IMG/VR virus record: IMGVR_UViG_3300040751_005014
Span: 1 to 35,687 of that record
DNA from: a virus
DNA: 35,687 nucleotides
Reading direction: 5' to 3' (one strand)
Below are positions 1 through 35,687 of this stretch, one piece after another. The first letter of the stretch is position 1. Every line of letters begins with the position of its first letter. Both the position numbers and the translations under genes were made by a program. The notes beneath the pieces were generated by a model. That model was not told the origin of the DNA. It saw nothing but the letters and a program-made list of their open reading frames with translations, and made no database searches.

Positions 1-591
1 ATATTTATCTACTGGCCAATGGTATAATTGTTTTAAGTAAGTATGGGGGATTCCAGTAAGCCCAGGGGCAGTTCCAGGATCATTACTTATACCATCTTCA
101 GCGTATGATTCAAATACGGGTTGACTACCAGCATTATTAGTATAAGTTAGGTCACTACCATCGTATCTCATAATACCATCAGTTGGTTCATTGTTTGGAT
201 CGCGAGCAGCCAAACAAAATTCAATTTTTGAGTCTTTTACTAATGATAATTCATACTCGTCATATTGATCAGTTAGAGCAGCTAAAGATTCAACATCACC
301 TCTAAATCGATGATTAAGATTTTCTATACAACTTAAGATTTGTTCGTCGGAGATATTGGTCTCCACCCCCAAAGGTTCACCTAAGTGTATTACGTGAAAC
401 ACTACTGGGATAGTAAGTACTTGTGCTGTGTCTAAATCGACTTCGGGTGCACAAGCAACTCGTTCCGTATATAATTGTTGTAGAAACGGATTTCTACGAA
501 TCATTTCATCAGTTCCACATTCGTCTTGAGAAAACGTAATAAACGGAACTAATAAAATTAAAGATAAGAAAAAACTTTTTAAGTTTACCAT
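1..591 (-). CDS. Secreted M43-like metalloprotease paralogue, N-terminal part (runs off left edge)
   Basis: The minus-strand reading frame is open from the ATG at 591 to the window edge (197 codons), so the C-terminal part lies outside. It begins with a hydrophobic Sec signal peptide (MVNLKSFFLSLILLVPFITF, then SQ) and continues with ECGTDE-type, ACAPEV and LTIPVVFHVIHLGEP segments. These match the N-terminal region of the neighbouring protein encoded at 585-2609 almost segment by segment, so the two are tandem paralogues. The start overlaps the upstream gene's stop by 7 bases, indicating co-transcription. The catalytic HExxH region is not in the window, so protease activity is inferred only from the paralogue. 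The two are not one broken gene, because each has its own signal peptide. Confidence 0.85.
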   Translation of the reverse strand, partial: MVNLKSFFLSLILLVPFITFSQDECGTDEMIRRNPFLQQLYTERVACAPEVDLDTAQVLTIPVVFHVIHLGEPLGVETNISDEQILSCIENLNHRFRGDVESLAALTDQYDEYELSLVKDSKIEFCLAARDPNNEPTDGIMRYDGSDLTYTNNAGSQPVFESYAEDGISNDPGTAPGLTGIPHTYLKQLYHWPVDKY

Positions 592-2609
592 GAATTTATA
601 TATATTTTTTTTGTTATAACAGTACCATCCGACCATTTCTCAGTCACTAGATATACACCAGGACTTAAATCAGCAGGAGATAATACAATTACTTGTTTTC
701 CTGACATATCATAATAAGAAGGATCACCAACAACATAATGATCACTTAATGAAATATATTTTTTATTTTCTATTACACCTTCAGCACATAACATACCGTA
801 GTTATCGACCAATAAATTAATATCGTCTTGATTTATAAAACCATCGAAATTAAAATCCCCAGGAGTACAATAACCAACTTCAGTATCCATATTAGTTAGT
901 AATACAAGTAAATCTTTGTTATTTACTACATTATCGTCATTTAAATCCCAAGGACAGATATCTGTTTCTAATTCACATGTATAGTCAACACAGAAATTTT
1001 CACTATATTCTGACCAACTACCACTACTAGTATATGAGGAAATTTCCTCACCATTTATTGTTATAGTATATTCACCACCATATTGCCACCCATTACCATC
1101 ACTATCATATAATGTAAGGGTGTAACAACCGTCTGGTAAGCATAACTCATATACACGAGTTGTAATACCAGCACCAAATCCTCCCTCATCTAACAGCACA
1201 TTACCAACTTCGTCAGTTAATGTGTAAGTATTTTGATTTGCAAAAAATTCAGTTGTAACTGCAAGTTCAAGTAGACTTTCGTTTTCAACTATTACACTTT
1301 CGAAAGCTGTGTTGTTAGAAGGGTATTCATCACCATCTAAAATAACCTCAAAATTAAATTGACCATTACCTAAAGTATAATCTACAAATTCCATAACCGT
1401 AAAATCACCACTAGGGATGGTTGGTAGATCATATAGTGTGCCATTTATTGAAAGTACTCCATCAACAGCATCATCACCACCTAAATTATTAACTTTAACA
1501 TTAAAACTTATAAGACTTTGACACCAACTTTCAGGTAAACCATAAACACCTGTTATTGCCAGATCTTTAGAACTTAATGACTGACAATTATAGTTGTTAT
1601 TTATTACTCCATTCATATCAGACCATAACACATTCCTCATCTCTTCTATCTGGTTTTGAGTAAACATAATCCTACAAGATTGACTTGTATAATCCATATA
1701 ATTTTCAGTTATTGCATCTTCACAATCTGGAAAACTACAACTGATATTTGAACTTGTTACTGGGGTATCTGGTATGTAATCACCATTAGTACATGTAGAT
1801 TCGCCAGTACAATTCGTTGTGTTCCAAAATGTATGATATAAACCTAGTGAATGACCTACCTCATGTGCAGTAGTTGAATTTAAATTACCTAATTTTATGT
1901 TACCTACAGTACCTGCCACATTATAAAGTAATACTGGACCTGAATTACAACTCGTACCGTAGTAACCAATATATGAGTATCCTTGTATACCTCCTCCTCC
2001 GTTATTACCACCTATTTCAGTTACTATCCATATATTATAGTATTTTTCAGTATCCCAACAACCTAGTGTTGATTTCATCCAGGAATCACTAATACCTGAA
2101 GATTGACTGTCTATTGCAACACCATCTTCAGCATAAGATTCACCATTATATACTAAATTGGACCCATCATGTCGGACAATACCATCTGTTGGTTGATTAT
2201 CAGGATCCCTTTGAGCCATACAGAATTCAATTTTACTATCTATTGCCAATGATAATTGATATTCATCATATGATTGAGTACCTGAACTTGATACTAATTG
2301 TGATAAAGCATCTGTATCGGCCCTAAATCTATGATTTAAATTTTCAACCATACTTAAGACCTGTTCATCTGAAATATTTGTCTGCTCCCCAACTGGTTCA
2401 CCTAAATGTACAATGTGAACAACTACAGGGATAGTAAGAACTTGTGCCGTGTCTAGATTAACTTCTGGTGCACATGCAACTCGCTCCTCATACACTTGTT
2501 GTAAAAACGGATTTCGATTTATTATCTCATCGGTACCGCATTCTTCTTGTGAAAACACAGAAAAAATCGAAATAATGTAAAAAACCGACAAGAATAATAG
2601 ATTTTTCAT
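585..2609 (-). CDS. Secreted pappalysin-like (M43) zinc metalloprotease with dockerin-like repeat and T9SS sorting domain
   Basis: This 674-residue protein is predicted to be exported and sorted to the host surface or medium. Seen: signal peptide MKNLLFLSVFYIISIFSVFS before Q; zinc motif HEVGHSLGLYH at about residues 249-259; Met-turn region NYMDYTSQSC with Met about 305; CARDB-like and beta-sandwich segments (PDGCYTLTLYDSDGNGW); a dockerin-like pair (DLNDDNVVNNKDL and DFNFDGFINQDDI); and a C-terminus with GVYLVTEKWSDGTVITKKIY, typical of type A type IX secretion domains. The HExxHxxGxxH plus Met-turn pattern identifies the metzincin family M43. A longer start at 2657 exists, but it would bury the signal peptide and sits inside a promoter-like element, so 2609 is preferred. 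A host-like secreted protease in a phage is unusual; its substrate is unknown. Confidence 0.9.
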   Translation of the reverse strand: MKNLLFLSVFYIISIFSVFSQEECGTDEIINRNPFLQQVYEERVACAPEVNLDTAQVLTIPVVVHIVHLGEPVGEQTNISDEQVLSMVENLNHRFRADTDALSQLVSSSGTQSYDEYQLSLAIDSKIEFCMAQRDPDNQPTDGIVRHDGSNLVYNGESYAEDGVAIDSQSSGISDSWMKSTLGCWDTEKYYNIWIVTEIGGNNGGGGIQGYSYIGYYGTSCNSGPVLLYNVAGTVGNIKLGNLNSTTAHEVGHSLGLYHTFWNTTNCTGESTCTNGDYIPDTPVTSSNISCSFPDCEDAITENYMDYTSQSCRIMFTQNQIEEMRNVLWSDMNGVINNNYNCQSLSSKDLAITGVYGLPESWCQSLISFNVKVNNLGGDDAVDGVLSINGTLYDLPTIPSGDFTVMEFVDYTLGNGQFNFEVILDGDEYPSNNTAFESVIVENESLLELAVTTEFFANQNTYTLTDEVGNVLLDEGGFGAGITTRVYELCLPDGCYTLTLYDSDGNGWQYGGEYTITINGEEISSYTSSGSWSEYSENFCVDYTCELETDICPWDLNDDNVVNNKDLLVLLTNMDTEVGYCTPGDFNFDGFINQDDINLLVDNYGMLCAEGVIENKKYISLSDHYVVGDPSYYDMSGKQVIVLSPADLSPGVYLVTEKWSDGTVITKKIYINSW

Positions 2610-2655: not shown

Positions 2656-2663
2656 ATAAATAG
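2656..2663 (-). promoter_or_regulatory. Candidate late promoter element (CTATTTAT)
   Basis: CTATTTAT on the minus strand lies 46 bases before the ATG at 2609. It is one of the recurring TATTTAT elements described in the findings. It overlaps the alternative start at 2657. Confidence 0.3.
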
Positions 2664-3167: not shown

Positions 3168-3776
3168 ATGGGTTGTTATACTAGAGAACAAATTGAAAAA
3201 ACAATCAAATCGAAAGATTACAAATGGTTTGAAAATGGTGATTACAATTTAAATATTGTAGGTGTTAGGAATTCTGACACTAACCAAGAAGTGACTAATA
3301 AATTTGATGATTGCATCACTTTATCTTATAAATCCAACGGTGACTGGAAATTCCATTGTTTCAAAGCGACAACAGATCCTGGAAAACACTGGGTCGAAAA
3401 TATACTGAACGAATCCGGTGTTGCAGTTTTGAAACCTAATCAGTATCGAGGGTCACACAAAATCGGATTACACCAAGGAAAGTACGAGGCACTCAGGCAA
3501 CAGAAACCTGTTCAAGTTTACAGAGATGATAATCTTGATGTTTGTTATGATCTTTTAGAAGAAAATGTTCAAGAAGGAATATATGGTATTAACATCCATA
3601 GAGCAACAGGAATCAAAGGAGGCGAATCTAAACAAATAGATAAATGGAGTGCGGGTTGTCAAGTAATTGCAGCATATGATGACTTCGAATTATTCATGGA
3701 AATTTGTAATAAAGCCAAAGATAATTGGGGTAATTCATTCACATATACACTTATAGAATCAGATGACATTGTGTAA
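3168..3776 (+). CDS. L,D-transpeptidase-like (YkuD-like) cell-wall enzyme; candidate endolysin
   Basis: This 202-residue protein carries NIHRATGIKGG with His144, then KWSAGCQVI with Ser161 and Cys164. The spacing (16 residues between His and Ser) and the S-x-G-C form match the catalytic signature of L,D-transpeptidase-like domains, H-x(14-17)-[ST]-x-G-C. Such enzymes act on peptidoglycan cross-links; in phages, related domains are used for wall degradation. There is no signal peptide, so it is either a cytoplasmic lysis enzyme needing a holin or a virion component. It overlaps the next gene (TAATG), which places it in an operon with the genes at 3776 and 4224. The fold is fairly confident; the reaction (hydrolysis or transfer) is inferred. 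Confidence 0.65.
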   Translation: MGCYTREQIEKTIKSKDYKWFENGDYNLNIVGVRNSDTNQEVTNKFDDCITLSYKSNGDWKFHCFKATTDPGKHWVENILNESGVAVLKPNQYRGSHKIGLHQGKYEALRQQKPVQVYRDDNLDVCYDLLEENVQEGIYGINIHRATGIKGGESKQIDKWSAGCQVIAAYDDFELFMEICNKAKDNWGNSFTYTLIESDDIV

Positions 3777-4234
3777 TGGAAGAATATAATCCAAATTACT
3801 GGGAAGATGAACAGAATAGAATTAAACAAGAAATTGATTCTGAAATAGATAATGTCCGAAAGGCTAATCAATATCTTAATCGATACAGACAATTCAACAT
3901 CGAATTGGAGAATATAAAATCGAAAAGTTTAGACAAAATTTCAGGTGAGTATAAAATGGATATTAAATCTATCGGTACAAAAAGAAGAGGTCTATCGATC
4001 GAGAAGTTTTTAAAAATTATTTTGTATTTGAAAGATTTGAAAATCGACAGTGATCTTGCACCGACAACAGTACACATCGATGATAGACTTTCAGATGATT
4101 TAAAAAATAGTGTTTTAAGAATGTATGTTCATGGATATAAGACAATAGGTTTTGAGTTATATTATAATCTTCAAAATTTACTGGGACTTAATGATTATTT
4201 AATTGAATTTGAAACTGTAATTTATGATGAGTGA
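3776..4234 (+). CDS. Hypothetical protein
   Basis: This 152-residue soluble protein is not recognised. The N-terminal half is charged and likely helical/coiled (KQEIDSEIDNVRKANQYLNR); the C-terminal half alternates hydrophobic segments (KFLKIILYLKDLKID, GFELYYNLQNLLGL). It has no leader, signal peptide or catalytic motif. Its start overlaps the stop of the L,D-transpeptidase-like gene, and its end overlaps the PPK2 fusion by 11 bases, so it is translated from the same message. Confidence 0.75.
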   Translation: MEEYNPNYWEDEQNRIKQEIDSEIDNVRKANQYLNRYRQFNIELENIKSKSLDKISGEYKMDIKSIGTKRRGLSIEKFLKIILYLKDLKIDSDLAPTTVHIDDRLSDDLKNSVLRMYVHGYKTIGFELYYNLQNLLGLNDYLIEFETVIYDE

Positions 4235-6134
4235 AGAGTTTAAAGATTATTATAATGAAATACTAGACTCGGTAAAATTAATTACTGGGGATGGAGTATA
4301 TGCAAAATCAATTGTGGAAGATAACTTTTTTAGAATAAAGACAGGATTCTATGAGGATGAAAACCCGACCAATATTATTAATTCAATTGTTTTCAAAATA
4401 AATGAAAATAAAAAAAAGGATCGAAGACTATTAGTCGAAGGTTTTTTTGATACTATTACTAACTTTTTCAAAGGTTTAAATCAGAAAGAAGATTCAGCCG
4501 ATGAAATAAACAGGTATCTACAACAAATACAAGATATTTTAGATGAGAATCAAATTTTTGATGAAGAGATTACTAAATTGTTAGGTGAGTTAAGAGATTC
4601 TGACTATATAAATTTAATTGATTTCTCCACTACAATAAGAGGATTGAAAAATAAATTTTTAAAACCTGGTAATAAGGAGGACTCGATCAGAGAATTCTTA
4701 CAGAAGTTATTAATTTCATTACCTAAAAGAGCGGAGTATGAAGAAAAAATAAATCAACAATCATTAGATAATGTACCAGATGGATCCGAAGAGGAAGAAG
4801 AATCTAAAATACCTAGAAAAAAATACATCAAAGAAAAAGAATTATTACAAATCGAATTATTGAAACTTCAAGAGTGGGTTAAAGAAAACAACGTACCAGT
4901 TGCGGTTGTTTTTGAAGGTAGAGATAGTGCAGGTAAAGGATCAACTATTAAAAAGTTTACTGAGTATTTGGATCCTAAATACTACCAGATAGTTGCATTA
5001 GGTATACCGACTGAAGAAGAAAAAAAGAATTGGTTCGAAAGGTATGAAAAGTATATAAAACCAGGTGTGATTACGTTCTTTGATAGGAGTTGGTACAATA
5101 GAGGTATTGTTGAACCAGTCATGGGATATTCTTCAGAGGAAGAATACGAAAAATTTATGAATGAAGTTGTACCATTCGAAAAAGATTTAATTTCAAAGGG
5201 TGTAATATTATTAAAATTCTGGTTATCGATAACTCAAGATAGACAGGAAAAAAGGTTTACCCTTAGACAACAGTCACCTTTGAAATATTGGAAATATTCT
5301 CCTAATGACGAAGCATCCAAAGATAAGTGGGATGAATATACAAAGTATAAAGAAAGAGTATTCAAAGACACATCTCATGATGAATCACCATGGATTGTGT
5401 TGGACTCAAATGATAAAAGAGTTTCAGGTCTAAATGCGATGAGAAAGTTATTACAAAAAATAAGTTACGATGATAAAAATAATGAAATCGTTGATCTGAA
5501 TTATCCTGAAGTTGTAAGTACAATAAAAGAATCGTTGATTATTGAGAGAAGTTTTACAGATCAATACGTTAGAGATATTGTAAAGTCATTGACTGAAATT
5601 GTGAAAACTAGAATTGAAAAAACATATTACTTACCAGAAGACATAACTAATGGTGAAAAGTTCGAATATGAAATCGATGGTATACCTCCATTTAGTATAG
5701 AATTCGTGTATAATTTAGATGAATATTTAGATGGTGAATATCGTCTTGATGGTGATTATGATAAAGATGATGATGTTATCGAAATAAGATTAACTGCTAA
5801 TCCTAATTTTCTTCCTAAACTACTTTATGATTTAATCGGTGACTTGAATGATATTGTTAGGCATGAAATGGAGCATTTATTTCAAAATGAAAGAGGGGAA
5901 TTAGATGATGACGGTGATGTACCAAAAGATAAAAGTTATTACTTACAACCTAAAGAATTACCCGCACAGATACAAGGATTAAGAAGAATTGCAAGACTAA
6001 GAAAACAACCTATAGACTTCGTAATTAGATCATGGTTTCAAAGAAATAAACCGATCCATGGATTAAATGATGAAGATATCGAAGAATTAACCTTGTATTT
6101 ATCATCGTTATATGATGATAAATTTAAACAATAA
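4224..6134 (+). CDS. Polyphosphate kinase 2 domain fused to a C-terminal HExxH metallopeptidase-like domain
   Basis: This 636-residue protein has three parts. Residues 1-200 are helical, with LLVE at 69-72 followed by GFF, resembling the [IL]-x-E sites of the neighbouring leader proteins. Residues about 205-430 are a PPK2 domain: Walker A GRDSAGKGS at 232-240, Walker B/DRSWYNRG at 287-294, then the PVMGY and KYWKYSPND lid segments. PPK2 enzymes transfer phosphate between polyphosphate and nucleotides. Residues about 470-636 hold DIVRHEMEHLFQ with HEMEH at 547-551 and a downstream PKELPAQ (Glu578), a possible third metal ligand, giving a zincin-like domain. All PPK2 motifs appear intact. I know of no standard family with this architecture. 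Direction of phosphate transfer and peptidase activity are not shown by the sequence. Confidence 0.85.
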   Translation: MMSEEFKDYYNEILDSVKLITGDGVYAKSIVEDNFFRIKTGFYEDENPTNIINSIVFKINENKKKDRRLLVEGFFDTITNFFKGLNQKEDSADEINRYLQQIQDILDENQIFDEEITKLLGELRDSDYINLIDFSTTIRGLKNKFLKPGNKEDSIREFLQKLLISLPKRAEYEEKINQQSLDNVPDGSEEEEESKIPRKKYIKEKELLQIELLKLQEWVKENNVPVAVVFEGRDSAGKGSTIKKFTEYLDPKYYQIVALGIPTEEEKKNWFERYEKYIKPGVITFFDRSWYNRGIVEPVMGYSSEEEYEKFMNEVVPFEKDLISKGVILLKFWLSITQDRQEKRFTLRQQSPLKYWKYSPNDEASKDKWDEYTKYKERVFKDTSHDESPWIVLDSNDKRVSGLNAMRKLLQKISYDDKNNEIVDLNYPEVVSTIKESLIIERSFTDQYVRDIVKSLTEIVKTRIEKTYYLPEDITNGEKFEYEIDGIPPFSIEFVYNLDEYLDGEYRLDGDYDKDDDVIEIRLTANPNFLPKLLYDLIGDLNDIVRHEMEHLFQNERGELDDDGDVPKDKSYYLQPKELPAQIQGLRRIARLRKQPIDFVIRSWFQRNKPIHGLNDEDIEELTLYLSSLYDDKFKQ

Positions 6135-16604: not shown

Positions 16605-16641
16605 ATAAAAAAAAAGATCGACTTTTTCAAGTCGATCTTTT
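16605..16641 (-). terminator. Intrinsic terminator of the tmRNA gene
   Basis: On the minus strand a 13-base-pair perfect stem (AAAAGATCGACTT / AAGTCGATCTTTT, loop GAAA) starts two bases after the 3' end of the tmRNA and runs into a T-run. It defines the 3' end of the primary transcript. Confidence 0.9.
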
Positions 16642-16642
16642 G

Positions 16643-17028
16643 TGGAGATGCTGGGCCTCGAACCCAGGTCCTGATTGTCCCAAACAGAAAGGACTACACG
16701 TTTAGGTCATTATTGATTCTCAACAATCCGAAATAGGTGATTGAATTTTTACATCCTCCGTCACCAATAGATGTATGACTCAATTTAGGGTTTAGTCATT
16801 TCTCCACCACAACAACGGACTTCTGTTCATAGGTACATGTCCTGACCGACCCGCTGGATACGTCGCCTTAGGCTGCGTATACCTCTTCAGTACGGATCAA
16901 ACCGAGAGTCTGAAGTTTTGCGAAAGTTTCGCCATTTGTGTTTTGAAACCGTGGATTAAAGTGATAGGTAACCTCTCACTACGTGCCCTTTGTGACTGAT
17001 GACACCAGTCAAATCCATAATCATCCCC
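16643..17028 (-). ncRNA. ssrA: tmRNA (transfer-messenger RNA)
   Basis: The RNA is about 386 nt. The 5' end GGGGATG (17028-17022) pairs with 3' CATCTCC (16650-16644) to form the acceptor stem with one G-U pair; CCA is not fully encoded. The 5' part has GATTATGGATTTGACTGG, close to the tmRNA D-loop consensus. The 3' part has a T-arm CTGGG-TTCGAGG-CCCAG. Between them is a tag reading frame ending VYAA-stop, with the stop codon in a hairpin loop (GCC-TAA-GGC), as in helix 5 of tmRNAs. tmRNA with SmpB rescues stalled ribosomes and adds a degradation tag. It lies 32 bases after the peptidase gene on the same strand. No smpB was seen, so host SmpB would be needed. Confidence 0.92.
16868..16933 (-). 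other. tmRNA tag-peptide reading frame
   Basis: The most likely frame resumes at GGC (16933) and encodes 21 residues: GETFAKLQTL, then GLI, then RTEEVYAA, followed by TAA at 16870-16868. The C-terminal AA is the usual protease signal, and the initial GE resembles Bacteroidota tags of the GETNYALAA type from memory. The tag is longer than those. The exact resume codon is inferred. Confidence 0.7.
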
Positions 17029-23649: not shown

Positions 23650-24053
23650 AACTTGTATATGTAAATGAATTAGGACCTAACTATAGGGGTGATAATGTTT
23701 ATGAATTTATCTTTTCTGATAAAGAAAACGTTTGGGGAGAAGGATGGGATGAAAGTCCCGCAATGTCAAAACCAGAACCACCTAATTTAGAATTTATATC
23801 ACTTGTTAAAATTTTGAAAAATTCAGGTCTTGAACTAAATCTAATTCAAGACTCTGATTTTTTCTCTTTTTATGACTCAATTGATGGAGTCATTGCACTT
23901 GCTTGGGAAAACGAGGATTCTCATTATGTAGTTAATAAAAAATTTGATAGATTAGTATTTTCTTATGGTGAAACAGTACAAAGTATTGAAGATAAGATTT
24001 ATGAAAGAGATCTAATCTTGATGGATGATAAAATTTTGATTGGAAATGAATAA
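23646..24053 (+). CDS. Hypothetical protein
   Basis: This 135-residue soluble protein starts MKLVYVNELGPNYRGDNVYE and contains ENVWGEGWDESPA and DGVIALAWENED, a mixed alpha/beta pattern rich in Trp and acidic residues. It is not a family I can name. Starts and stops overlap with both neighbours by 4 and 8 bases, so it is translated within the same operon as the acidic core-like protein and the Lys/Pro repeat protein. Confidence 0.75.
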   Translation: MKLVYVNELGPNYRGDNVYEFIFSDKENVWGEGWDESPAMSKPEPPNLEFISLVKILKNSGLELNLIQDSDFFSFYDSIDGVIALAWENEDSHYVVNKKFDRLVFSYGETVQSIEDKIYERDLILMDDKILIGNE

Positions 24054-24903
24054 AAATAGAAAAATATTGAAATTGGTAAGTGAGGGATTTAAGTATAACA
24101 CACTTAAAGAAATGACTAATAGTGACATTCATCAATTATATAATAAAATTATCGGTGAATCCACAACCACTACAGTTCAAAAGACCACGTATTCAAAACA
24201 AGACGTACAGTCAATGAAAAATAAAAATGCCGGTATAAAAGTTGATGATGGTACTGTAGTTCCAAATGACGATGGTTCAGTGACAGTGACCACACAAGAA
24301 GGTGAAATGGGAGAATCAGATATCAACACAATTAACCCGTATGACGGTCAACAAACTCAGGACCCTAAACAAGTAGGTCCAAGTACGGATGACGGTATGG
24401 ATAATTATCAAGATGGGATGATTGATGAGGAAGAAGATAATCCATATGCTATCTGCACATCTTCTTTAGGGTTAGTTGGTAGAAAAAGAGATTCCTATTC
24501 TAAAGAAGAATCTAAGAAGTTTGAAAGATGTGTTTTAGATGTTAAAAAAGAAAGTATTAGGAAATTAGAAGAATCTTTAGTATCTTTAATTTTAGAAACT
24601 GAAGGTATGATTACAAAAAAAGATTTGATCGAACAAGAAGTTGCACCTACAAGGGTTAAGCCTGGTACAAAAGAAAAACCCAAAAGAGGTACACCTTATA
24701 AACCAAAACATTCACCCAAACCAAAAGCGGGAAACACTGAGACTGCACCTACAAGAGTAAAACCAGGAACAAAAGAAAAACCAAAAAGAGGTACTCCTTA
24801 CAAACCAAAACATTCACCGAAGCCTAAGGCCGAGGATCAATCAATTCCAGATTTTTTCAAATTCGATAATATCAATATTACATTTAAAGATGAGCAAGAT
24901 TAA
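24046..24903 (+). CDS. Leader-bearing protein with duplicated Lys/Pro-rich module
   Basis: This 285-residue protein starts MNKNRKILKLVSE (Glu13) then G14. An acidic, low-complexity middle follows, then a helical segment ending KKDLIE (Glu196) before Q197. Immediately after is a 29-residue basic module, APTRVKPGTK through SPKPKA, present twice with identical protein sequence. Cleavage at LIE-Q would free a strongly basic Pro/Lys peptide, which might bind packaged DNA. That is inference. The TTG at 24040 is a possible upstream start, but ATG at 24046 begins at the leader. It overlaps the next gene by 14 bases. Confidence 0.75.
   Translation: MNKNRKILKLVSEGFKYNTLKEMTNSDIHQLYNKIIGESTTTTVQKTTYSKQDVQSMKNKNAGIKVDDGTVVPNDDGSVTVTTQEGEMGESDINTINPYDGQQTQDPKQVGPSTDDGMDNYQDGMIDEEEDNPYAICTSSLGLVGRKRDSYSKEESKKFERCVLDVKKESIRKLEESLVSLILETEGMITKKDLIEQEVAPTRVKPGTKEKPKRGTPYKPKHSPKPKAGNTETAPTRVKPGTKEKPKRGTPYKPKHSPKPKAEDQSIPDFFKFDNINITFKDEQD
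24643..24831 (+). repeat. Two 87-base coding repeats (29 residues each)
   Basis: The copies are 24643-24729 and 24745-24831, separated by 15 bases. The encoded residues are identical, while 13 of 29 codons differ synonymously. Confidence 0.95.
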
Positions 24904-26161
24904 AGAACAAATACAATATGACGGTCCAGAAAGAATGGATCAAGATATCGAAAGAAAGATTTCAAGTGGTGATACACCTCTGTCAGACAATCCAGCTTTT
25001 CCAGGAAAAGAAGAGGATGAGTTTGATAATAGTTTTGCGGAACTTGTAGCTTCTAAGAGATTTAAAGATGTTGTTGAAAAGGTTAAACAATATACTGGAA
25101 TGCAAGAAGTTGCGGGTCAAAATGCTTTCATGCAATTACAGATGATGTTGATGAATGCCGTAAGACGTGTAAAGGAATTAGAATCAAATAATGAGGGTTT
25201 TTTAGAACAATTAGCTGTCGATCTCGTAAAAAAAGAAATGTCTTTACCGGACGATGCTTTTCAATATGACGTAGAATTAATGTCGATGCCAGGCGGTATT
25301 GACACTTCAAAAATGCAAGGACAACCTGAAGAATTTGAAGATGAGGAAATTCAGGATGTATTCGGTATTGAAAGTAATGAAGCCGAAGATGACCTTGAAA
25401 ACTTTATGGCAGCATTTGAGAAATTTGATCTTGAGAAGGCTAAAAGGAGATTCATAAACTCATTGATTCAAGGAGCATCAAAAAAGGGTCACTATATGTT
25501 CAATCTCGTTAGTGAAGAAATAAATAATATCAATCCAGAACTTCTAAATCTATATGGTGTACTAATGTCTATTAATGATCTTCTATATTGGATTATGCCA
25601 GACCAAATGACTATGTCAGCCGCTGAGGGTGGTGAAGGAGTACAGGGTTCCGAAGAAATTGATGAAACTACTGATCCACCTACGATCAGAGCTAAAGGTC
25701 TCTTTTTTCCAGTCCTTATTCATGAATTGATTAAAGGAGTTTACGAAGTTTTAGGAACTCAAGGTTTACCTGATGATCCTAGAGCTGCGGAAATGGTTAT
25801 GGGTGCTGAAGATACATTACCATATGAAGTTTGGGATTTAAGACTTGGACCAGTCATTTGGGAAAAGTTCACTGAGTCCTATCCAGATAAACTTTTCGAA
25901 GATGATATGAGAGAAATTCAAAACTATCTATTCTCAAGATTTTCATCTTTGACTACCGATGAATTCTTCGAGGTTGCTAGAATGATACTTTCAGGATCTG
26001 AAGAGGGTAAGAAAATTGTATCTAACATGGTTGATGAAATCATAGACGAATTAAAAGGATATGATTATGAGGATGCAATGAGTCAATACTCAGATGATGA
26101 CGACGATGATGAAGGAGGATTAGAAGATTTCTTAGGTGATTTAGGAATCTCTCTTACATAA
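24890..26161 (+). CDS. Conserved-looking phage protein upstream of the large terminase
   Basis: This 423-residue acidic protein occupies the position of the small terminase (gp16) in T4, directly before gp17 with a one-base overlap, but it is far larger than gp16 (about 18 kDa) and I do not recognise homology. It is helical in large part (FKDVVEKVKQYTG, MQLQMMLMNAVRRVKEL), has a central part (GLFFPVLIHELIKGVYEVLG) and ends in an acidic tail (DDDDDDEGGLEDFLGDLG). A packaging or head-completion role is possible from position alone. Confidence 0.75.
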   Translation: MSKIKEQIQYDGPERMDQDIERKISSGDTPLSDNPAFPGKEEDEFDNSFAELVASKRFKDVVEKVKQYTGMQEVAGQNAFMQLQMMLMNAVRRVKELESNNEGFLEQLAVDLVKKEMSLPDDAFQYDVELMSMPGGIDTSKMQGQPEEFEDEEIQDVFGIESNEAEDDLENFMAAFEKFDLEKAKRRFINSLIQGASKKGHYMFNLVSEEINNINPELLNLYGVLMSINDLLYWIMPDQMTMSAAEGGEGVQGSEEIDETTDPPTIRAKGLFFPVLIHELIKGVYEVLGTQGLPDDPRAAEMVMGAEDTLPYEVWDLRLGPVIWEKFTESYPDKLFEDDMREIQNYLFSRFSSLTTDEFFEVARMILSGSEEGKKIVSNMVDEIIDELKGYDYEDAMSQYSDDDDDDEGGLEDFLGDLGISLT

Positions 26162-27930
26162 TGGGTCTGACAAAGGAAAAAGTTTTACTAGAATACGCTA
26201 AGTGTGTCAGAGATACTGACTATGCTATGAGTACTTATCTACAAACATATGATAATACTCAAAAGGGATACGTACCTTTAAAATTATTTCCTGATCAAAA
26301 AAAATTGATAGAAGATTTTGAAAAACATGAAGAAAATATTGCTCTGAAATATAGACAAGCAGGTGTATCCACAGTCACATCGGCTTGGGTATCCAAGAAA
26401 ATTGTATTTGCTTCCAAAAGTAGACCAGAAAAAATTCTGATAATCGCAAATAAATTAGATACTGCGGTTGAGATGGCCAATAAAATCAGAGGGTTTGTTG
26501 ATCAATGGCCAGATTGGTTAGGTATTAATTTCTCTAACGAAAAAAATTCACAGAGACATTTTAAACTAAGTAACGGTTGTGAAGTTAAGGCGGTTGCAAC
26601 ATCAAAGGACGCACTTAGGGGATATACACCTACCACACTAATTTTTGATGAGGCGGCTTATATTGAAGCTGATGATGATTTTTGGGCAGCTTGTATGGCT
26701 TCCCTCTCAACAGGGGGTAAAGTGATTGTAATTTCAACACCTAATGGGTTTGACCCCATATATTATCAGATATATGATCAGTCATTGAAGGGTATGAATG
26801 ATTTCCAAGTCACCGAAATGTTTTGGTATCGGGATCCAAGATACACTTCTGACTTAAAGTTGGTTCAAACTAAAGATATAGTTCATTATTTGTTGAATAG
26901 AGAAGACTATAATGACAGTGAAATAACAATAGATTATTCACACATAAATCCCAGAGAAAGAGACTTTGATGAGATCAAATCACATTTTGAAAAAGGATAT
27001 AAACCATTGTCCTCTTGGTTCGAAGCTATGGCTAAAAAACTCAAGTTTGACAGACGAAAAATTTCTCAAGAACTTGAATGTAATTTTCTTGGATCTGGTG
27101 ATAATGTTATTCCCTCTGAAACTGTTGAATATCTAAAAGACAATTGTATAAGGGAACCTGAAAATAAATTTATGGGTGGTGCTCTTTGGCAATGGAAAGA
27201 ACCGGTCATAGGTCACAAATACATTATGGGTATAGATGTTTCTCGAGGTGATAGTGAAGATTTTACGACATTTTGTATCATAGATTTCGATGAAAGGGAA
27301 CAAGTTTTAGAATACTTAGGTAAGATACCACCAGATGTCGCAGCTGAAGTCGCTTACAAATGGGCAACAATGTATTCCGCATTTGTTGTTATCGATATTA
27401 CTGGAGGTATGGGAGTTTCTACTTCACGTAAATTACAAGAACTAGGTTACAAAGACTTATACGTAGAGGGAAAAGATGTATTCAACAAATGGAAATATGA
27501 TCCGAAAGTTAACGAAAAAATACCAGGTCTAAATTTCAACTCAAAAAGAGTACAAATAATTTCGTCATTTGAGGAGTGTTTGAGACATAAGTTTACTGTA
27601 AGATCAATCAGACTTTTGAATGAACTTAACACTTTTGTATATATAAATGGTAGACCAGACCATATGAAGGGACAACATGATGATTTGATAATGGCTATGG
27701 CAATGGCAATTTACGTCGGTGAAAATTCATTTACACAACTTAATAAATTGACCGAACAAACTAAAGCAATGGTTGACAGTTGGTCGTTACAAGAAAGTGA
27801 CCAAAGTCAAAAAGTTGCAGATTTTAATCCATCAATACCAAACTACTATAGAAGTGAGGGTCACCAAAGAGATGCTTTGAAGAAAGATTATAGAGAATAT
27901 TCTTGGCTTTTTGGTAGAGGTTCTATTTAA
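26161..27930 (+). CDS. gp17: Terminase large subunit (T4 gp17-like)
   Basis: This 589-residue protein is the packaging motor ATPase and nuclease. The ATPase part has KYRQAGVST at about 63-71 in the Walker A position, Walker B LIFDEAAY (Asp163-Glu164) and the coupling segment VIVISTPNG. The RNase H-like nuclease part has MGIDVSRGDSEDF (Asp359), VVIDITGG (Asp412) and HDDLIMAMA (Asp507-Asp508). The Walker A lacks the usual Gly-Lys, having Gly-Val-Ser-Thr instead, as in several deviant terminase P-loops; the function is probably kept. It cuts concatemeric DNA and drives it through the portal. It is followed by the portal gene 30 bases later. Confidence 0.93.
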   Translation: MGLTKEKVLLEYAKCVRDTDYAMSTYLQTYDNTQKGYVPLKLFPDQKKLIEDFEKHEENIALKYRQAGVSTVTSAWVSKKIVFASKSRPEKILIIANKLDTAVEMANKIRGFVDQWPDWLGINFSNEKNSQRHFKLSNGCEVKAVATSKDALRGYTPTTLIFDEAAYIEADDDFWAACMASLSTGGKVIVISTPNGFDPIYYQIYDQSLKGMNDFQVTEMFWYRDPRYTSDLKLVQTKDIVHYLLNREDYNDSEITIDYSHINPRERDFDEIKSHFEKGYKPLSSWFEAMAKKLKFDRRKISQELECNFLGSGDNVIPSETVEYLKDNCIREPENKFMGGALWQWKEPVIGHKYIMGIDVSRGDSEDFTTFCIIDFDEREQVLEYLGKIPPDVAAEVAYKWATMYSAFVVIDITGGMGVSTSRKLQELGYKDLYVEGKDVFNKWKYDPKVNEKIPGLNFNSKRVQIISSFEECLRHKFTVRSIRLLNELNTFVYINGRPDHMKGQHDDLIMAMAMAIYVGENSFTQLNKLTEQTKAMVDSWSLQESDQSQKVADFNPSIPNYYRSEGHQRDALKKDYREYSWLFGRGSI

Positions 27931-27948
27931 GTAATAGTATATTTCTTT

Positions 27949-27956
27949 ATATTTAT
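27949..27956 (+). promoter_or_regulatory. Candidate late promoter element (ATATTTAT)
   Basis: ATATTTAT ends four bases before the ATG of the portal gene, in the 30-base gap after the terminase gene. Confidence 0.45.
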
Positions 27957-27960
27957 CAGT

Positions 27961-29811
27961 ATGGCAGATAACAATTATACAATTTGGCAAAGACTAACAA
28001 AGGTTTTTGGACCTGATTCAACCTTGGATCAGCAACCACCAGTTTTCAAATTTGATAAACAAGAATTATTAAAGACGACTAACAAGAGTGAGTATGAGAA
28101 GGAAAAACTACAAGCACAACAAACTTACTATTTAGGTCAACAGTGGCAAAAAATTGAAAATAATTTATACACACAAGCCGTCTATTATGAACCTACTAGG
28201 TTAGCATCTTTTTATGATTATGAATCTATGGAGTATACTCCTGAAATATCTGCCGCATTAGACATATACGCCGAAGAATCTACAACACCTAATGAAGATG
28301 GATTTATTTTACAGATATATTCTGAAAGTAAAAGAATAAAGTCTATACTCGCTGATTTGTTCAATAACAAATTGGATATTAATACGAATCTTCAAATGTG
28401 GACTAGAAACACATGTAAGTATGGAGATAACTTTGTATTTTTAAAACTTGACCCAGAAAAAGGTGTAATGGGAGGACAACAATTACCTAACATTGAAATA
28501 CAAAGATTAGAGAGAGGTATGAAACTACGTCCTGAAAGAAACACTACCGATACTGAAAATGATTCGTTAAAGTTTCTTTGGCAAGTTAAGGACATGAGTT
28601 TTAACACATGGGAAATTGCTCACTTCAGATTATTAGGTGACGATAGAAAGTTACCCTATGGTACTTCCATGTTAGAAAAAGCTAGAAGGATTTGGAAACA
28701 ATTAATCTTGTCTGAAGATGCGATGTTAATTTACAGAACATCTAGGGCACCAGAAAGAAGAGTCTTTAAAGTTTTCGTGGGAAATATGGACGATAAGGAT
28801 GTTGAACCATATATCCAAAGAGTTGCGAATAAATTCAAGAGAGATCAAGTTGCAGATCCTCAAAATGGTAATGTTGATTTGAGATACAATCAGATGGCTG
28901 TCGATCAAGATTATTTCATACCTGTCAGGGACCCTAACGCACCTAATCCAATCGATACTTTACCAGGAGCACAAAACTTATCTGAAATAGCGGATATTGA
29001 GTACATCCAAAAAAAGTTATTGACAGCACTAAGGGTTCCTAAAGCATTCCTAGGTTTTGAAGAAGTGGTGGGTGACGGTAAAACTTTAGCTTTACAAGAT
29101 ATCAGGTTTGCAAGAACAATTAATAAAATACAAAAGTCTATGATAGCAGAATTGAATAAAATTGCTATTATTCACCTTTACATATTAGGATTTGAAGATG
29201 AACTAACAAACTTTACTCTTTCACTGACTAACCCATCAACTCAAGCAGACCTACTCAAAGTAGAAAATTGGCAATCTAAAATTCAACTATATAGAGATGC
29301 GGTCTCTGATCCTGGTAATGGAATCCAAGCAGTATCCAGCTCATGGGCTAAGAAACATATTCTTGGTCTTTCAGATGACGAAATTAAGTTGGATATACAA
29401 CAACAAAGAATTGAAAAAGCCGTAGCTGCTGAATTAGAAAAAACACCTGAAGTTATTTCTAAGACTGGATTGTTCGCCAACATTGACAAACTTTACGGTA
29501 ATAAGGTTGATCAAGATACGGGTGAACAAGAAGGTGAGGTTTCAGAACCATCTGATTCTGGATTTGGAGATTTGGGTGGAGGACCTCCTCCTGATTTAGG
29601 TGGAGATTTAGGTGGAGACTTAGGTGGTGATTTAGGAGGTGATGAAGGTGGTGGTACTGAAGAAACACCCATAGAATCATTTGTAAAAAATAAGGATCTT
29701 GATTTAATTTTAGAGGATTCATTACTAAATGGTAAAGATTCTATTGATCTATCTAAAGGTCGTGAAGACTTGAAAGAAATCGAAGAAAAACTCAATAAAC
29801 TTTTATTGTAA
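27961..29811 (+). CDS. gp20: Portal vertex protein (T4 gp20-like)
   Basis: This 616-residue protein matches the T4 gp20 portal family: the early YEPTRLASFYDYESMEYTPE segment, EDAMLIYRTSRAPERRVFKV, the ALRVPKAFLGFEE region and the late SLTNPSTQADLLKVENW. Twelve copies form the ring through which DNA enters and leaves the head and on which prohead assembly begins. T4 gp20 is about 524 residues; the extra length here includes a Gly/Asp/Leu repeat tail at about 537-565 (DLGGDLGGDLGGDLGG) and an acidic helical end. It lies between terminase and protease genes, as in T4. Confidence 0.95.
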   Translation: MADNNYTIWQRLTKVFGPDSTLDQQPPVFKFDKQELLKTTNKSEYEKEKLQAQQTYYLGQQWQKIENNLYTQAVYYEPTRLASFYDYESMEYTPEISAALDIYAEESTTPNEDGFILQIYSESKRIKSILADLFNNKLDINTNLQMWTRNTCKYGDNFVFLKLDPEKGVMGGQQLPNIEIQRLERGMKLRPERNTTDTENDSLKFLWQVKDMSFNTWEIAHFRLLGDDRKLPYGTSMLEKARRIWKQLILSEDAMLIYRTSRAPERRVFKVFVGNMDDKDVEPYIQRVANKFKRDQVADPQNGNVDLRYNQMAVDQDYFIPVRDPNAPNPIDTLPGAQNLSEIADIEYIQKKLLTALRVPKAFLGFEEVVGDGKTLALQDIRFARTINKIQKSMIAELNKIAIIHLYILGFEDELTNFTLSLTNPSTQADLLKVENWQSKIQLYRDAVSDPGNGIQAVSSSWAKKHILGLSDDEIKLDIQQQRIEKAVAAELEKTPEVISKTGLFANIDKLYGNKVDQDTGEQEGEVSEPSDSGFGDLGGGPPPDLGGDLGGDLGGDLGGDEGGGTEETPIESFVKNKDLDLILEDSLLNGKDSIDLSKGREDLKEIEEKLNKLLL

Positions 29812-29818
29812 TATTTAT
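29811..29818 (+). promoter_or_regulatory. Candidate late promoter element (ATATTTAT, also containing TATAAATA)
   Basis: ATATTTATAAATA begins at the last base of the portal stop codon. ATATTTAT ends seven bases before the ATG at 29826. The extended site contains TATAAATA, identical to the T4 late promoter core. Confidence 0.5.
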
Positions 29819-29825
29819 AAATAAA

Positions 29826-30551
29826 ATGGCTATGAAAACTTTTGGACAACTCAAGACATATATCGAAAATTCATTGACGGAATCATATGGTACTAATGAA
29901 TTTAAAACAAACATGAAATTTTTCAAAGATAACGTATTATCTGACAAACAAATTTGTGAAGCTTACAGTATTTACGATAACCTAAGTGAATCACAAGAAT
30001 TAGATCAAACAGTATCAGGAGAATATTTGGAAGAAAGTTTAACCATTTTAGAGAATATTCTGATAAGTAACAAAGATAAGATCGGTAAACTCTCTGAAGG
30101 TTTGAAATTGGATGTTAATAATTATATTGATATTGATAATCTAGTTTACCATAAAACATCCGATAAAATTCTAGAAAGAATTGAATCAAAAAATAAGATT
30201 AAATCTTTATTACAAGAAAGTAAGGTCGACATACCAACTTCTAAAATAGATTTACCTCTTTCTTCAATGAAAGTCATTGCCGCAAAAACATTCGATAGAA
30301 ATTTTTCGAACTTGAGTGAGTCAGATCTAAATCAGGTAAAAAAATATTTATCGATGAGTAATGATGAATTAAAGGTAGAGTATGAAAATGAAAAGACTAA
30401 AATTTTCGAAAGTCTTAATTTACAACTAAATGAATCATCTAGTGACCAAGAATTGAAAACAAAAGTTGATAAGACAATCGAGAAAATTAATTCTAATGAA
30501 GTAAACTTATTTTCTTTATTTCAATTGAAACAGTTATCAGAAAATCTGTGA
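29826..30551 (+). CDS. Leader-bearing head protein candidate
   Basis: This 241-residue protein starts MAMKTFGQLKTYIENSLTE (Glu19), then S20. The MKTF-Q-type beginning and [IL]-x-E end recall T4 internal proteins, whose capsid-targeting leader begins MKTYQEFIAE. The rest is helical and charged (DNLSESQELDQTVSGEYLEE, SLNLQLNESSSDQELKTKVD) with no domain I recognise. It sits where T4 has the small core genes 67 and 68, between portal and protease, so a prohead core role is plausible. Its 3' end overlaps the antisense bS21 gene by 15 bases. Confidence 0.75.
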   Translation: MAMKTFGQLKTYIENSLTESYGTNEFKTNMKFFKDNVLSDKQICEAYSIYDNLSESQELDQTVSGEYLEESLTILENILISNKDKIGKLSEGLKLDVNNYIDIDNLVYHKTSDKILERIESKNKIKSLLQESKVDIPTSKIDLPLSSMKVIAAKTFDRNFSNLSESDLNQVKKYLSMSNDELKVEYENEKTKIFESLNLQLNESSSDQELKTKVDKTIEKINSNEVNLFSLFQLKQLSENL

Positions 30552-30725
30552 TTTTTTGTGTAAGTAAATCGCCTTCTTTTTAGATTTTCTTTTTTTAACA
30601 CTTTTTTTCTCAAAAAACATATTAGAACGAATCTTTTCATTCTGTTTAACTTTTTGAACTTTGTTCTTGTAAATTTTCAGAGCCCTCTCTATCCCATCTT
30701 TTTTATTTACTTTGACTATTAGCAT
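30537..30725 (-). CDS. rpsU: Ribosomal protein bS21
   Basis: This 62-residue protein matches bS21, especially of Bacteroidota: start MLIVKVNKKDGIERALKIYK, then NMFFEKKSVKKRKSKKKAIY. The length is usual for the family. bS21 sits on the 30S subunit near the anti-Shine-Dalgarno end of 16S rRNA and affects initiation. Phage-borne bS21 genes are known from environmental phages. It is on the minus strand inside the + strand head-gene cluster, with its own TATTTAT element 5 bases upstream, so it appears to be an independent insertion. The protein lacks obvious defects. Confidence 0.9.
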   Translation of the reverse strand: MLIVKVNKKDGIERALKIYKNKVQKVKQNEKIRSNMFFEKKSVKKRKSKKKAIYLHKKSQIF

Positions 30726-30730
30726 GTTAT

Positions 30731-30738
30731 ATAAATAG
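30731..30738 (-). promoter_or_regulatory. Candidate late promoter element (CTATTTAT), minus strand
   Basis: The minus-strand CTATTTAT ends five bases before the ATG of the bS21 gene, giving the isolated antisense gene its own element. Confidence 0.45.
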
Positions 30739-30810
30739 TTTCTTTTGACAAATGTACAAATATAACTTATATTTTTAATTATAAAAATAAACTATTATTA
30801 TGTTTAAAAT

Positions 30811-31257
30811 ATGAAAAAAGGAAAAACCAGTCGGTTGAATTTTTTACAAAATGCGACATGTTTTTTTGGTACAGTTGACGCTAAAAAATTAAAATCATTA
30901 TATATCGTTTTACAATGCTGGATCGAACCAACAGATCATTACGAGAATTGGGAAAGAATCGTAGGTAATTTGGAGAGAAAAATAAAACATACAGTCTTGG
31001 AGTCTATGGATTTAATAACATTCAAAAAATATAATATCATAGATCTAGACATCAGAAGTAGTGGTATAAAAGAAGGTAAGAGAAGTTTTGCGAATCTTGA
31101 AATTACACTATTTCTAAATGAAGAAAACGAAAATTTCAAATCCTTAATATTAAGAAATAAAATAAAAAATATTATAGGTCAGATTTATAAAGAAGATCTT
31201 ATGAAATCAAAATATTTCAAAATACATAAGTCTAAATCAATCAAAGTTTCATCTTAA
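30811..31257 (+). CDS. Hypothetical protein between portal and protease genes
   Basis: This 148-residue basic protein is not recognised. It contains a Trp-rich segment (LYIVLQCWIEPTDHYENWER) and several strand-helix segments (KYNIIDLDIRSSG, SFANLEITLFLNEENE) and ends in a Lys/Ser-rich tail. The position within the head cluster suggests a small morphogenesis role. A degenerate element (ACTATTATT) is upstream. Confidence 0.75.
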   Translation: MKKGKTSRLNFLQNATCFFGTVDAKKLKSLYIVLQCWIEPTDHYENWERIVGNLERKIKHTVLESMDLITFKKYNIIDLDIRSSGIKEGKRSFANLEITLFLNEENENFKSLILRNKIKNIIGQIYKEDLMKSKYFKIHKSKSIKVSS

Positions 31258-31269
31258 ATCAAATTCAAA

Positions 31270-31282
31270 CTATTTATAAATA
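31270..31282 (+). promoter_or_regulatory. Candidate late promoter element (CTATTTATAAATA)
   Basis: CTATTTATAAATA contains both the window's TATTTAT element and an exact T4-type TATAAATA (31275-31282), eight bases before the ATG of the prohead protease gene. Confidence 0.5.
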
Positions 31283-31290
31283 AATTTGAT

Positions 31291-32007
31291 ATGAAAGTTT
31301 TAGGACCCTCAGATATAGGAAAAGGTATATTAATTGAGTATGATGCCGGATCGATCTCACCAGGAGATTCAAGAAATGCCCAAGTTATCAAAGAATCTTA
31401 TGGTGACTTAGATCACTCCAAGCCGTTTGTTTTTTACGCGACTTTACAAAAGTATGATATACCAAATAGAAACGGTAGAACTTATCCAGAAAAAATATTG
31501 AGAAGAGAAGTTGAAAAGTATAAAAATAACATTCAAAAAGGTTTGGCAATTTCTGAGTTAAACCACCCAGAATCTTCATTAATTGACTTAGATAGAGTTT
31601 CTCATTTAATAACTGACGTTTGGTGGGAAGGAAACACATTGATGGGTAAGATAAAGTTATTAACCTCACCTGGTTTCCATGAAAGAGGTGTTGTTTCAAC
31701 ACCAGGTGATCAAGCGGCAAATTTAATGAGACAAGGTGTTACGATGGGTGTGTCATCAAGAGGTGTTGGATCACTTGTAAATAAAGGAGAAAAAAATGAA
31801 GTTCAAGATGATTTCGAATTAATATGTTTTGATTTGGTTTCGGCACCTTCAACTCCAGGAGCTTACTTATACTTAAATCCTGATGATAGAGGTAAGTATG
31901 ATGAAAAACTAGATGAAGAAAAAAATCAAGAAAAAGAGGTAAATACAGATAAATTTACACGTTCACTTGATTTGATGACAAAGTTATCCGATTATTTAGA
32001 TAAATAA
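31291..32007 (+). CDS. gp21: Prohead core protease (T4 gp21-like)
   Basis: This 238-residue protein belongs to the gp21/herpesvirus-assemblin-like serine protease fold. Catalytic candidates are His92 in SELNHPESS and Ser155 or Ser156 in GVSSRGVGS. The segment KYDIPNRNGRTYPEKIL and the closing SAPSTPGAYL are also typical. In T4, gp21 cuts scaffold, capsid and internal proteins after [IL]-x-E, then is lost from the head. The many [IL]-x-E leaders in this window make this the likely processing enzyme. It is followed by a DUF4494-like gene and the scaffold gene. Confidence 0.93.
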   Translation: MKVLGPSDIGKGILIEYDAGSISPGDSRNAQVIKESYGDLDHSKPFVFYATLQKYDIPNRNGRTYPEKILRREVEKYKNNIQKGLAISELNHPESSLIDLDRVSHLITDVWWEGNTLMGKIKLLTSPGFHERGVVSTPGDQAANLMRQGVTMGVSSRGVGSLVNKGEKNEVQDDFELICFDLVSAPSTPGAYLYLNPDDRGKYDEKLDEEKNQEKEVNTDKFTRSLDLMTKLSDYLDK

Positions 32008-32014
32008 TATTATT

Positions 32015-32230
32015 ATGGTTACAGCTGAAAAATACTTTGTGGTCAAAATACAGATTGATGACGTAGATCCACAAACAGGAAGAATTAAAAAACTACGTGA
32101 AGAAAAGTTAGTCAATGCTATTAGTGTCACTGATTGTGAAGCTAAAGTTATGGAAAGAATGGGTAATATTTCATTGGATTGGAGAATTACTTCAGTCAGT
32201 GAAAGTAAGATTGACGAAGTTTTCGAATAA
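32015..32230 (+). CDS. DUF4494-like small protein
   Basis: This 71-residue protein has the pattern YFVVKIQIDDVDPQTGRIKK, EKLVNAISVTDCEAKV, then DWRITSVSESKIDEVFE. This resembles the N-terminal half of DUF4494 proteins of Bacteroidota and their phages (KV-strand, LVDA-S-TEAEA helix, SVK-I-EIF). Function is unknown. It lies between the protease and scaffold genes and is ended by a terminator. Confidence 0.7.
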   Translation: MVTAEKYFVVKIQIDDVDPQTGRIKKLREEKLVNAISVTDCEAKVMERMGNISLDWRITSVSESKIDEVFE

Positions 32231-32253
32231 ACTTTCTACAACTAACAAATTAC

Positions 32254-32279
32254 AAGTCGAGGTAAAACTCGACTTTTTT
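32254..32279 (+). terminator. Intrinsic terminator
   Basis: An 8-base-pair stem AAGTCGAG / CTCGACTT with loop GTAAAA is followed by a T-run. It separates the protease unit from the scaffold-capsid unit. Confidence 0.85.
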
Positions 32280-32321
32280 GTTTTCTAGAAATAGATGGCC
32301 AGATTTTTTTTAGTTTTTCAC

Positions 32322-32329
32322 ATATTTAT
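32322..32329 (+). promoter_or_regulatory. Candidate late promoter element (ATATTTAT)
   Basis: ATATTTAT lies 27 bases before the ATG of the scaffold gene and directly downstream of a terminator, so a promoter is expected here. Confidence 0.5.
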
Positions 32330-32356
32330 TTAGAAATAAACCTTATTAATAAAAAA

Positions 32357-33808: not shown

Positions 33809-33834
33809 TAAAAATAACTTAAAAAATTATAAAA

Positions 33835-35586: not shown

Positions 35587-35608
35587 TAATTAAAGAGTTG
35601 AAAAAATT

Positions 35609-35635
35609 AAAGGGGGACATTAGTCCCCCTTTTTT
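35609..35635 (+). terminator. Intrinsic terminator after capsid gene
   Basis: A 10-base-pair stem AAAGGGGGAC / GTCCCCCTTT with an ATTA loop and a T-run ends the capsid transcript. The last 50 bases of the window show no further gene. Confidence 0.9.
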
Positions 35636-35687
35636 ATTTCACAATATTTGGAATCTGGTCCAAAATATAAACATCTGTATAATTTTA

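Follow-up and report, generated by a model that had tools for sequence, protein, structure and literature searches.

Tandem genes for M43 metalloproteases with predicted type IX sorting tails in a T4-like phage, and the conserved, often lysis-linked phage lineage to which they belong

The stretch of DNA analysed here (the window) is the whole of IMG/VR record IMGVR_UViG_3300040751_005014, 35,687 bases in length, and it carries a T4-like head module with terminase, portal and capsid genes. The virus is regarded as one that infects Bacteroidota. The nearest capsids to its gp23 are those of an uncultured phage and of Microcystis, Rhodothermus and Flavobacterium phages, at 30–42% identity. At the left end of the contig, two genes for M43 metalloproteases lie in tandem on the minus strand: copy 1, which is complete (ATG at 2609, stop codon at 585–587), and copy 2, with its start codon at 589–591 and a reading frame that leaves the contig after 197 aa (Table 1).

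Table 1 Features of the tandem protease locus, of the head module and of other parts of the same phage (window coordinates unless a contig is named)
Feature	Position	Strand	Basis or remark
Copy 2, truncated at the contig end (5' part of the second M43 gene)	1..591	-	complete at L002:12019-14196
Overlap of copy 1 and copy 2 genes, 7 bases	585..591	-	sequence
Copy 1, complete M43 metalloprotease gene, 674 aa	585..2609	-	ORF and Pfam
Compact T9SS C-terminal sorting tail (predicted), copy 1 residues 627-674	588..731	-	profile-profile alignment to bacterial T9SS tails
Dockerin-like calcium-loop pair, copy 1 residues ~552-608	786..956	-	profile match to dockerin 2y3n
CARDB-like Ig domain, copy 1 residues ~346-440	1290..1574	-	AlphaFold model vs CARDB 2kl6, E 9.6e-4
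Met-turn YMDY, copy 1 residues 304-307	1689..1700	-	sequence; tyrosine two residues on
Zinc-binding motif HEVGHSLGLYH, copy 1 residues 249-259	1833..1865	-	sequence
Cys24, candidate cysteine-switch residue of copy 1	2538..2540	-	invariant in 16 aligned phage proteins
Signal-peptide-like N-terminus, copy 1 residues 1-21	2547..2609	-	hydrophobic stretch ending FSQ; family h-region hydropathy
Candidate late-promoter heptamer TATTTAT, 53 bases upstream of copy 1	2656..2662	-	motif position count
Endolysin-like gene, divergent neighbour outside protease operon	3168..3776	+	phrog_33083 'endolysin' E 6e-17; phrog_3000 E 2e-35
Terminase gene	26161-27930		window head module
gp20 portal gene	27961-29811		window head module
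gp23 capsid gene	33835-35586		window head module
Por_Secre_tail protein, 1,126 aa, secreted-type	L340 758-4138		canonical T9SS domain above cut-off; same phage
CHU_C protein, 1,107 aa, secreted-type	L340 11451-14774		canonical T9SS domain above cut-off; same phage

The preliminary description of this DNA had read copy 1 as a complete M43 protease with dockerin-like calcium loops, and this reading was borne out by the ORF and by its match to the Pfam profile Peptidase_M43 (E 2.5e-17; score 63.7 bits, cut-off 23); the M43 profile also matches ulilysin (5e-43) and mirolysin (8e-38). Both copies carry the zinc motif HExxHxxG/NxxH and exceed the family HMM cut-off, copy 1 shows the Met-turn tyrosine, and on the sequence they are assigned to the pappalysin-type zinc proteases (M43B) and predicted to be secreted; PHROGs gave no match for either copy. 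An M43B pappalysin would be expected to cleave with Xaa-Arg/Lys specificity. The pro-region cysteine, placed at residue 24 or 25, is positionally conserved across the aligned phage M43 proteins and stands in copy 1 at the position equivalent to Cys23/24 of mirolysin and cytophagalysin, with a putative switch function. Downstream of the catalytic domain, a CARDB-like domain is suggested by structural likeness, and the profile also matches 2kl6 and 3idu, weakly. It is followed by two F-hand calcium loops, DLNDDNVVNNKD and DFNFDGFINQDD; the family profile matches the solved dockerin 2y3n with E 1.4e-5, and NF041540 (dockerin_GC) was found in 11 of 16 relatives. Because the AlphaFold model of the protease is of moderate confidence (70.4) and low near residues 259–314, the catalytic assignment is carried by the sequence profiles.

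The C-terminus had also been described as a type IX (T9SS) sorting domain, and this description gained support from profile comparison. Single-sequence HMM searches gave weak hits below cut-off (type A, TIGR04183, E 0.04–0.26; type C, E 0.003–0.05), and since the TIGR04183 scores of 11.3–15.7 bits fall short of the curated cut-off of 23, the proteases are not filed as curated type A members. These searches were replaced by an hhalign comparison of 18 phage tails with 68 bacterial M43 tails, which gave a probability of 95.2, E 2.8e-8 and a score of 40.9, against at most 11.1 for 20 column-shuffled controls and one reversed control; the match spans 36 columns, equivalent to the C-terminal half of a typical sorting domain. 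The comparison indicates that the phage tails are homologous to T9SS cargo tails of known type, placing the proteases among T9SS cargo in the broad sense. Moreover, the same phage encodes two other secreted-type proteins with canonical T9SS domains (Table 1), and the genomes with the nearest bacterial M43 homologues contain 47–149 T9SS sorting domains each. Export of the phage proteases through the type IX system is thus very probable.

Copy 2 could be followed beyond the window. A scan of IMG/VR retrieved a 96,160-bp contig (L002, record G021, IMGVR_UViG_3300040856_003829) and a 68,186-bp contig (L003, record G022) that overlap it, and on the longer one copy 2 is complete, encoding 725 aa with an M43 match of E 1.3e-17 (64.6 bits, cut-off 23), the zinc motif HEIGHAFNLFH, dockerin loops and a sorting tail. 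This leftward extension had been proposed as a check, and it revealed an intact active site and a sorting tail in the second copy. The description of a 7-base overlap with a diverged second copy likewise holds: the two proteins are 42% identical from end to end and are sisters in the catalytic-domain tree (support 100/98), so that the suggestion of duplication followed by diversification, with the active site intact in each copy, appears fair. Beyond copy 2 comes a gene that overlaps it by 14 bases and encodes a DNA/RNA endonuclease (PF01223, E 3e-26) whose N-terminus resembles a signal peptide; genes for a thioesterase and an FKBP isomerase come next.

A fusion of host exoenzyme genes to a phage contig during assembly was weighed as an explanation for the locus, given that the M43 genes sit at a contig end and resemble host-type exoenzymes. 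The two overlapping contigs come from other sample numbers and are 100% identical to the window over 12,609 bp, protease junction included, and both also carry gp23, which assigns the proteases to the phage; the 96-kb contig has the two proteins with canonical T9SS domains as well. M43 and gp23 genes occur together on a single contig in 8 of the 22 M43 records tested, among them diverged phages, and the phage M43 sequences form a phage-only clade. The artefact is therefore extremely improbable, and the chimeric assembly, named beforehand as a possible refutation, was rejected on the replicated junction and the M43–gp23 linkage. The tandem M43 genes are encoded by the phage, as originally proposed, a conclusion in which the sequence, the completed second copy, the replicated gp23 linkage and the phage homologues of the same architecture agree. 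The window's phage also encodes a full-length DnaK of 621 aa (L340:6481-8346), and assignment of a host through this protein was dropped, its best full-length match among 150 genomes being about 67% identical (order of G043).

An alignment-based scan found relatives of the proteases encoded in 230 IMG/VR stretches. The 96 ORFs examined, which are redundant between overlapping loci, were reduced to 40 clusters at 90% identity, and all 40 keep the HExGHxxxxxH motif, the NxMDY Met-turn and the N-terminal cysteine, a count that understates loss of the active site since the ORF filter demanded HExGH and the Met-turn; an ORF passing this filter was missing from just three loci, which lie on short or truncated contigs. 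The sorting tail is kept in all complete proteins but one (L162), two further ones having missed the regular expression for the tail while showing it by eye. In unsaturated pairs the dN/dS ratio is approximately 0.05–0.11, indicating that these genes are under purifying selection. In the catalytic-domain tree, the 20 phage sequences group in a single clade (100/98), outside which fall the 79 bacterial homologues, almost all of them from Bacteroidota; bacterial sampling covered the 80 top loci from a single scan. A recent capture from a host is not favoured by this separate clade.

The lineage spans T4-like and other tailed phages, the records without gp23 carrying different terminase, portal or tape-measure genes. 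The closest relatives outside the window's own species (L114 and L115) are 43–45% identical. The unrelated phage L007 encodes, next to M43, a 102-aa membrane protein with an 82% identical counterpart in the window's phage, which shows that genes have been exchanged between these phage types. The M43 gene is accessory: 20 contigs with an identical or related gp23, all of them fragments, yielded no relative that passed the M43 cut-off. Likewise, no M43 relative was detected in 50,697 INPHARED phage records, so that studies of isolates would have missed this lineage.

The arrangement of neighbouring genes is recurrent. In 28 of 40 phage clusters the next gene encodes a relative of CHU_C (T9SS type B), usually with an overlap of 4 bases, as against none of 74 bacterial M43 genes. 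This neighbour is present in L114 and L115; in the window's phage the second protease takes its place, with a CHU_C protein encoded some 13 kb further on. AlphaFold modelled the CHU_C partner poorly (pLDDT 57), and this model was not used. A lysis-type gene (amidase, M15 or GH19 endolysin, holin-like or endolysin-like) is located within 1.5 kb of the M43 gene in 22 of 40 clusters against 6.6 expected from other ORFs of the same loci, an excess to be read as an estimate, the seeds being drawn from those very loci and the holin labels coming from one weak PHROG match. Two gene orders recur, namely tape measure–tail–M43–CHU_C–holin–amidase and portal–M43–CHU_C–holin–M15 endolysin. No ORF resembling a unimolecular spanin was found within 4 kb of M43 in the 40 loci by a crude heuristic that misses some lipoproteins, and a LysM search of the phage contig returned nothing.

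The heptamer TATTTAT, which copy 1 and the structural genes have in common, copy 1 in a weaker form, lies no more than 70 bases upstream of plus-strand genes in 12 of its 18 occurrences, where 1.1 would be expected, and it may be the late promoter of this phage. Unlike TATTTAT, the classic T4 late element TATAAATA did not clearly favour either strand and was set aside.

The best reading of these data is a late surface protease, exported through the T9SS, that acts when the virus leaves the cell. The M43 genes would be expressed late and the protease exported by Sec as a cysteine-blocked zymogen, which would then pass the type IX system and be activated outside; it may cut proteins of the host surface or matrix around lysis, allowing progeny virions to escape and disperse, with the CHU_C protein encoded next door in most relatives as its probable surface partner. 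The first of these steps are suggested by sequence and the exit role by gene order, and export, timing, substrate and exit role all keep this conditional standing. For the exit role in particular, the chances appear about even. The excess of neighbouring lysis-type genes, the CHU_C partner and the TATTTAT element were counted in its favour. Counting against it are the 18 of 40 clusters that lack a lysis gene within 1.5 kb, partly on short contigs, and the window itself, where transcription of the protease genes runs away from the late genes and the closest lysis-like gene is a divergent neighbour. The short sorting tail, with its scores under the curated HMM cut-offs, and the weaker form of TATTTAT before copy 1 also weigh against the reading as a whole.

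Several other roles were weighed on the same evidence. A protease displayed at the surface could strip phage receptors or adhesins and so bar competing phages, as the authors of the Cryophage study proposed for other T9SS cargo (PMC7468147), and both surface display and variable cargo would fit; however, the M43 genes lie next to structural and lysis genes and have the upstream element in common with structural genes, which suggests expression late in infection, when exclusion would be of little use. We consider superinfection exclusion unlikely, and infer that the gene neighbourhood favours release over the blocking of other phages. An auxiliary role in nutrition, in which the exported protease and the co-encoded nuclease would digest external polymer and feed the infected cell, accords with the overlap of copy 2 with a secreted-nuclease gene, with a nuclease near M43 in L088 as well, and with bacterial homologues that are likely digestive exoenzymes, but it leaves the linkage to lysis genes and the conserved CHU_C partner unexplained and is judged improbable. 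Quite improbable, too, is a protease carried on or bound by virions that would aid passage through matrix or entry into the next host: in several phages the M43 gene adjoins tail genes, the dockerin loops might serve for docking and a tail-fibre-like protein of the window's phage bears a separate metzincin domain, yet virions are assembled in the cytoplasm, whereas signal-peptide-like N-termini and sorting tails would direct the proteases outside.

The reading of a protease acting at virus exit can be taken one step further, by regarding the protease and the CHU_C protein as an external branch of the lysis cassette that the host's T9SS would deliver, and with which Bacteroidota phages that have no recognisable spanins would attack the outer envelope from its outer side, breaching or unloading it; this extension seems rather unlikely. 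Bacteroidota phages have been reported to use only unimolecular spanins (PMC12596118), and several are without recognisable ones (PMC6139136). With the phage spanins (Rz/Rz1 and unimolecular), the proteases share at most a functional likeness, as products aimed at the envelope whose genes lie next to those for holin and endolysin; they combine a signal-peptide-like N-terminus with a predicted T9SS tail in place of the lipobox-plus-transmembrane design, and are not classed as spanins.

The proposed mechanism draws on established knowledge of T9SS cargo and of the M43B enzymes mirolysin, ulilysin and cytophagalysin, which have the same catalytic domain, zinc motif, Met-turn tyrosine and pro-region cysteine as the phage proteases (MEROPS M43B), mirolysin and cytophagalysin also carrying C-terminal domains of T9SS type (PMC8259862, PMC11674741). 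The phage proteins differ in being phage-encoded, in their dockerin pair, their much shorter sorting tail and their own clade, and many of them have Ser, Thr or Asn for the Gly of HExxHxxG. Phage-encoded T9SS cargo as such is already known. Cryophage encodes type A cargo presumed to use the host machine, namely an endoglucanase, a GH39 enzyme and a PA14 protein, which vary between strains of one phage (PMC7468147), whereas in the present case a single protease lineage is conserved across unrelated phages together with a CHU_C partner and a linkage to lysis. T9SS sorting domains in Bacteroidota phages were likewise described near crAss-BACON ORFs, with no M43 protease reported there (PMC6949934). 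No description of phage M43 proteases, their CHU_C partner or their link to lysis genes was found in the literature searched, which lay outside most subscription journals and all bioRxiv preprints, and the conserved, lysis-linked protease lineage appears to be new. T9SS cargo had thus been noted for single phages; here one protease lineage and its T9SS partner extend across T4-like and other tailed phages, and recurrence in dozens of otherwise unrelated viruses suggests that late cutting of the host cell surface is widespread and little studied.

Additional features of the window and of related records may be noted. A tmRNA gene is located at 16640-17028 on the minus strand (Rfam RF00023, 99.3 bits; ARAGORN tag GETFAKLQTLGLIRTEEVYAA). 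The plus-strand ORFs at 6150, 10685, 11240, 12567 and 20692 have, by eye, similar short starts (e.g., EISRYREILGLDSILEQ, ISRIKGLMTEGE and IHEIMGVNKKVIVEQ), a common segment that looks like a capsid-targeting or propeptide sequence. The 636-aa protein encoded at 4224-6134 (+) contains a polyphosphate kinase 2 domain (PF03976, E 6e-73) and, in its C-terminal part, a metallopeptidase-like HEMEH motif. In record G001, which is 99.98% identical to window positions 23835-35687, a tail-fibre-like protein of 1,230 aa, which has T/P-rich linkers but no signal peptide (L341:2773-6465, minus strand), contains the metzincin domain mentioned above (HEWGHLIGFNHT; Reprolysin_5, E 6e-6) and is possibly a virion-borne protease. 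Finally, a 113-kb gp23-positive record shows the order nuclease–TonB-dependent receptor–CHU_C protein–M43 (L088:4571-12037); to our knowledge, an outer-membrane receptor gene is unusual in a phage.
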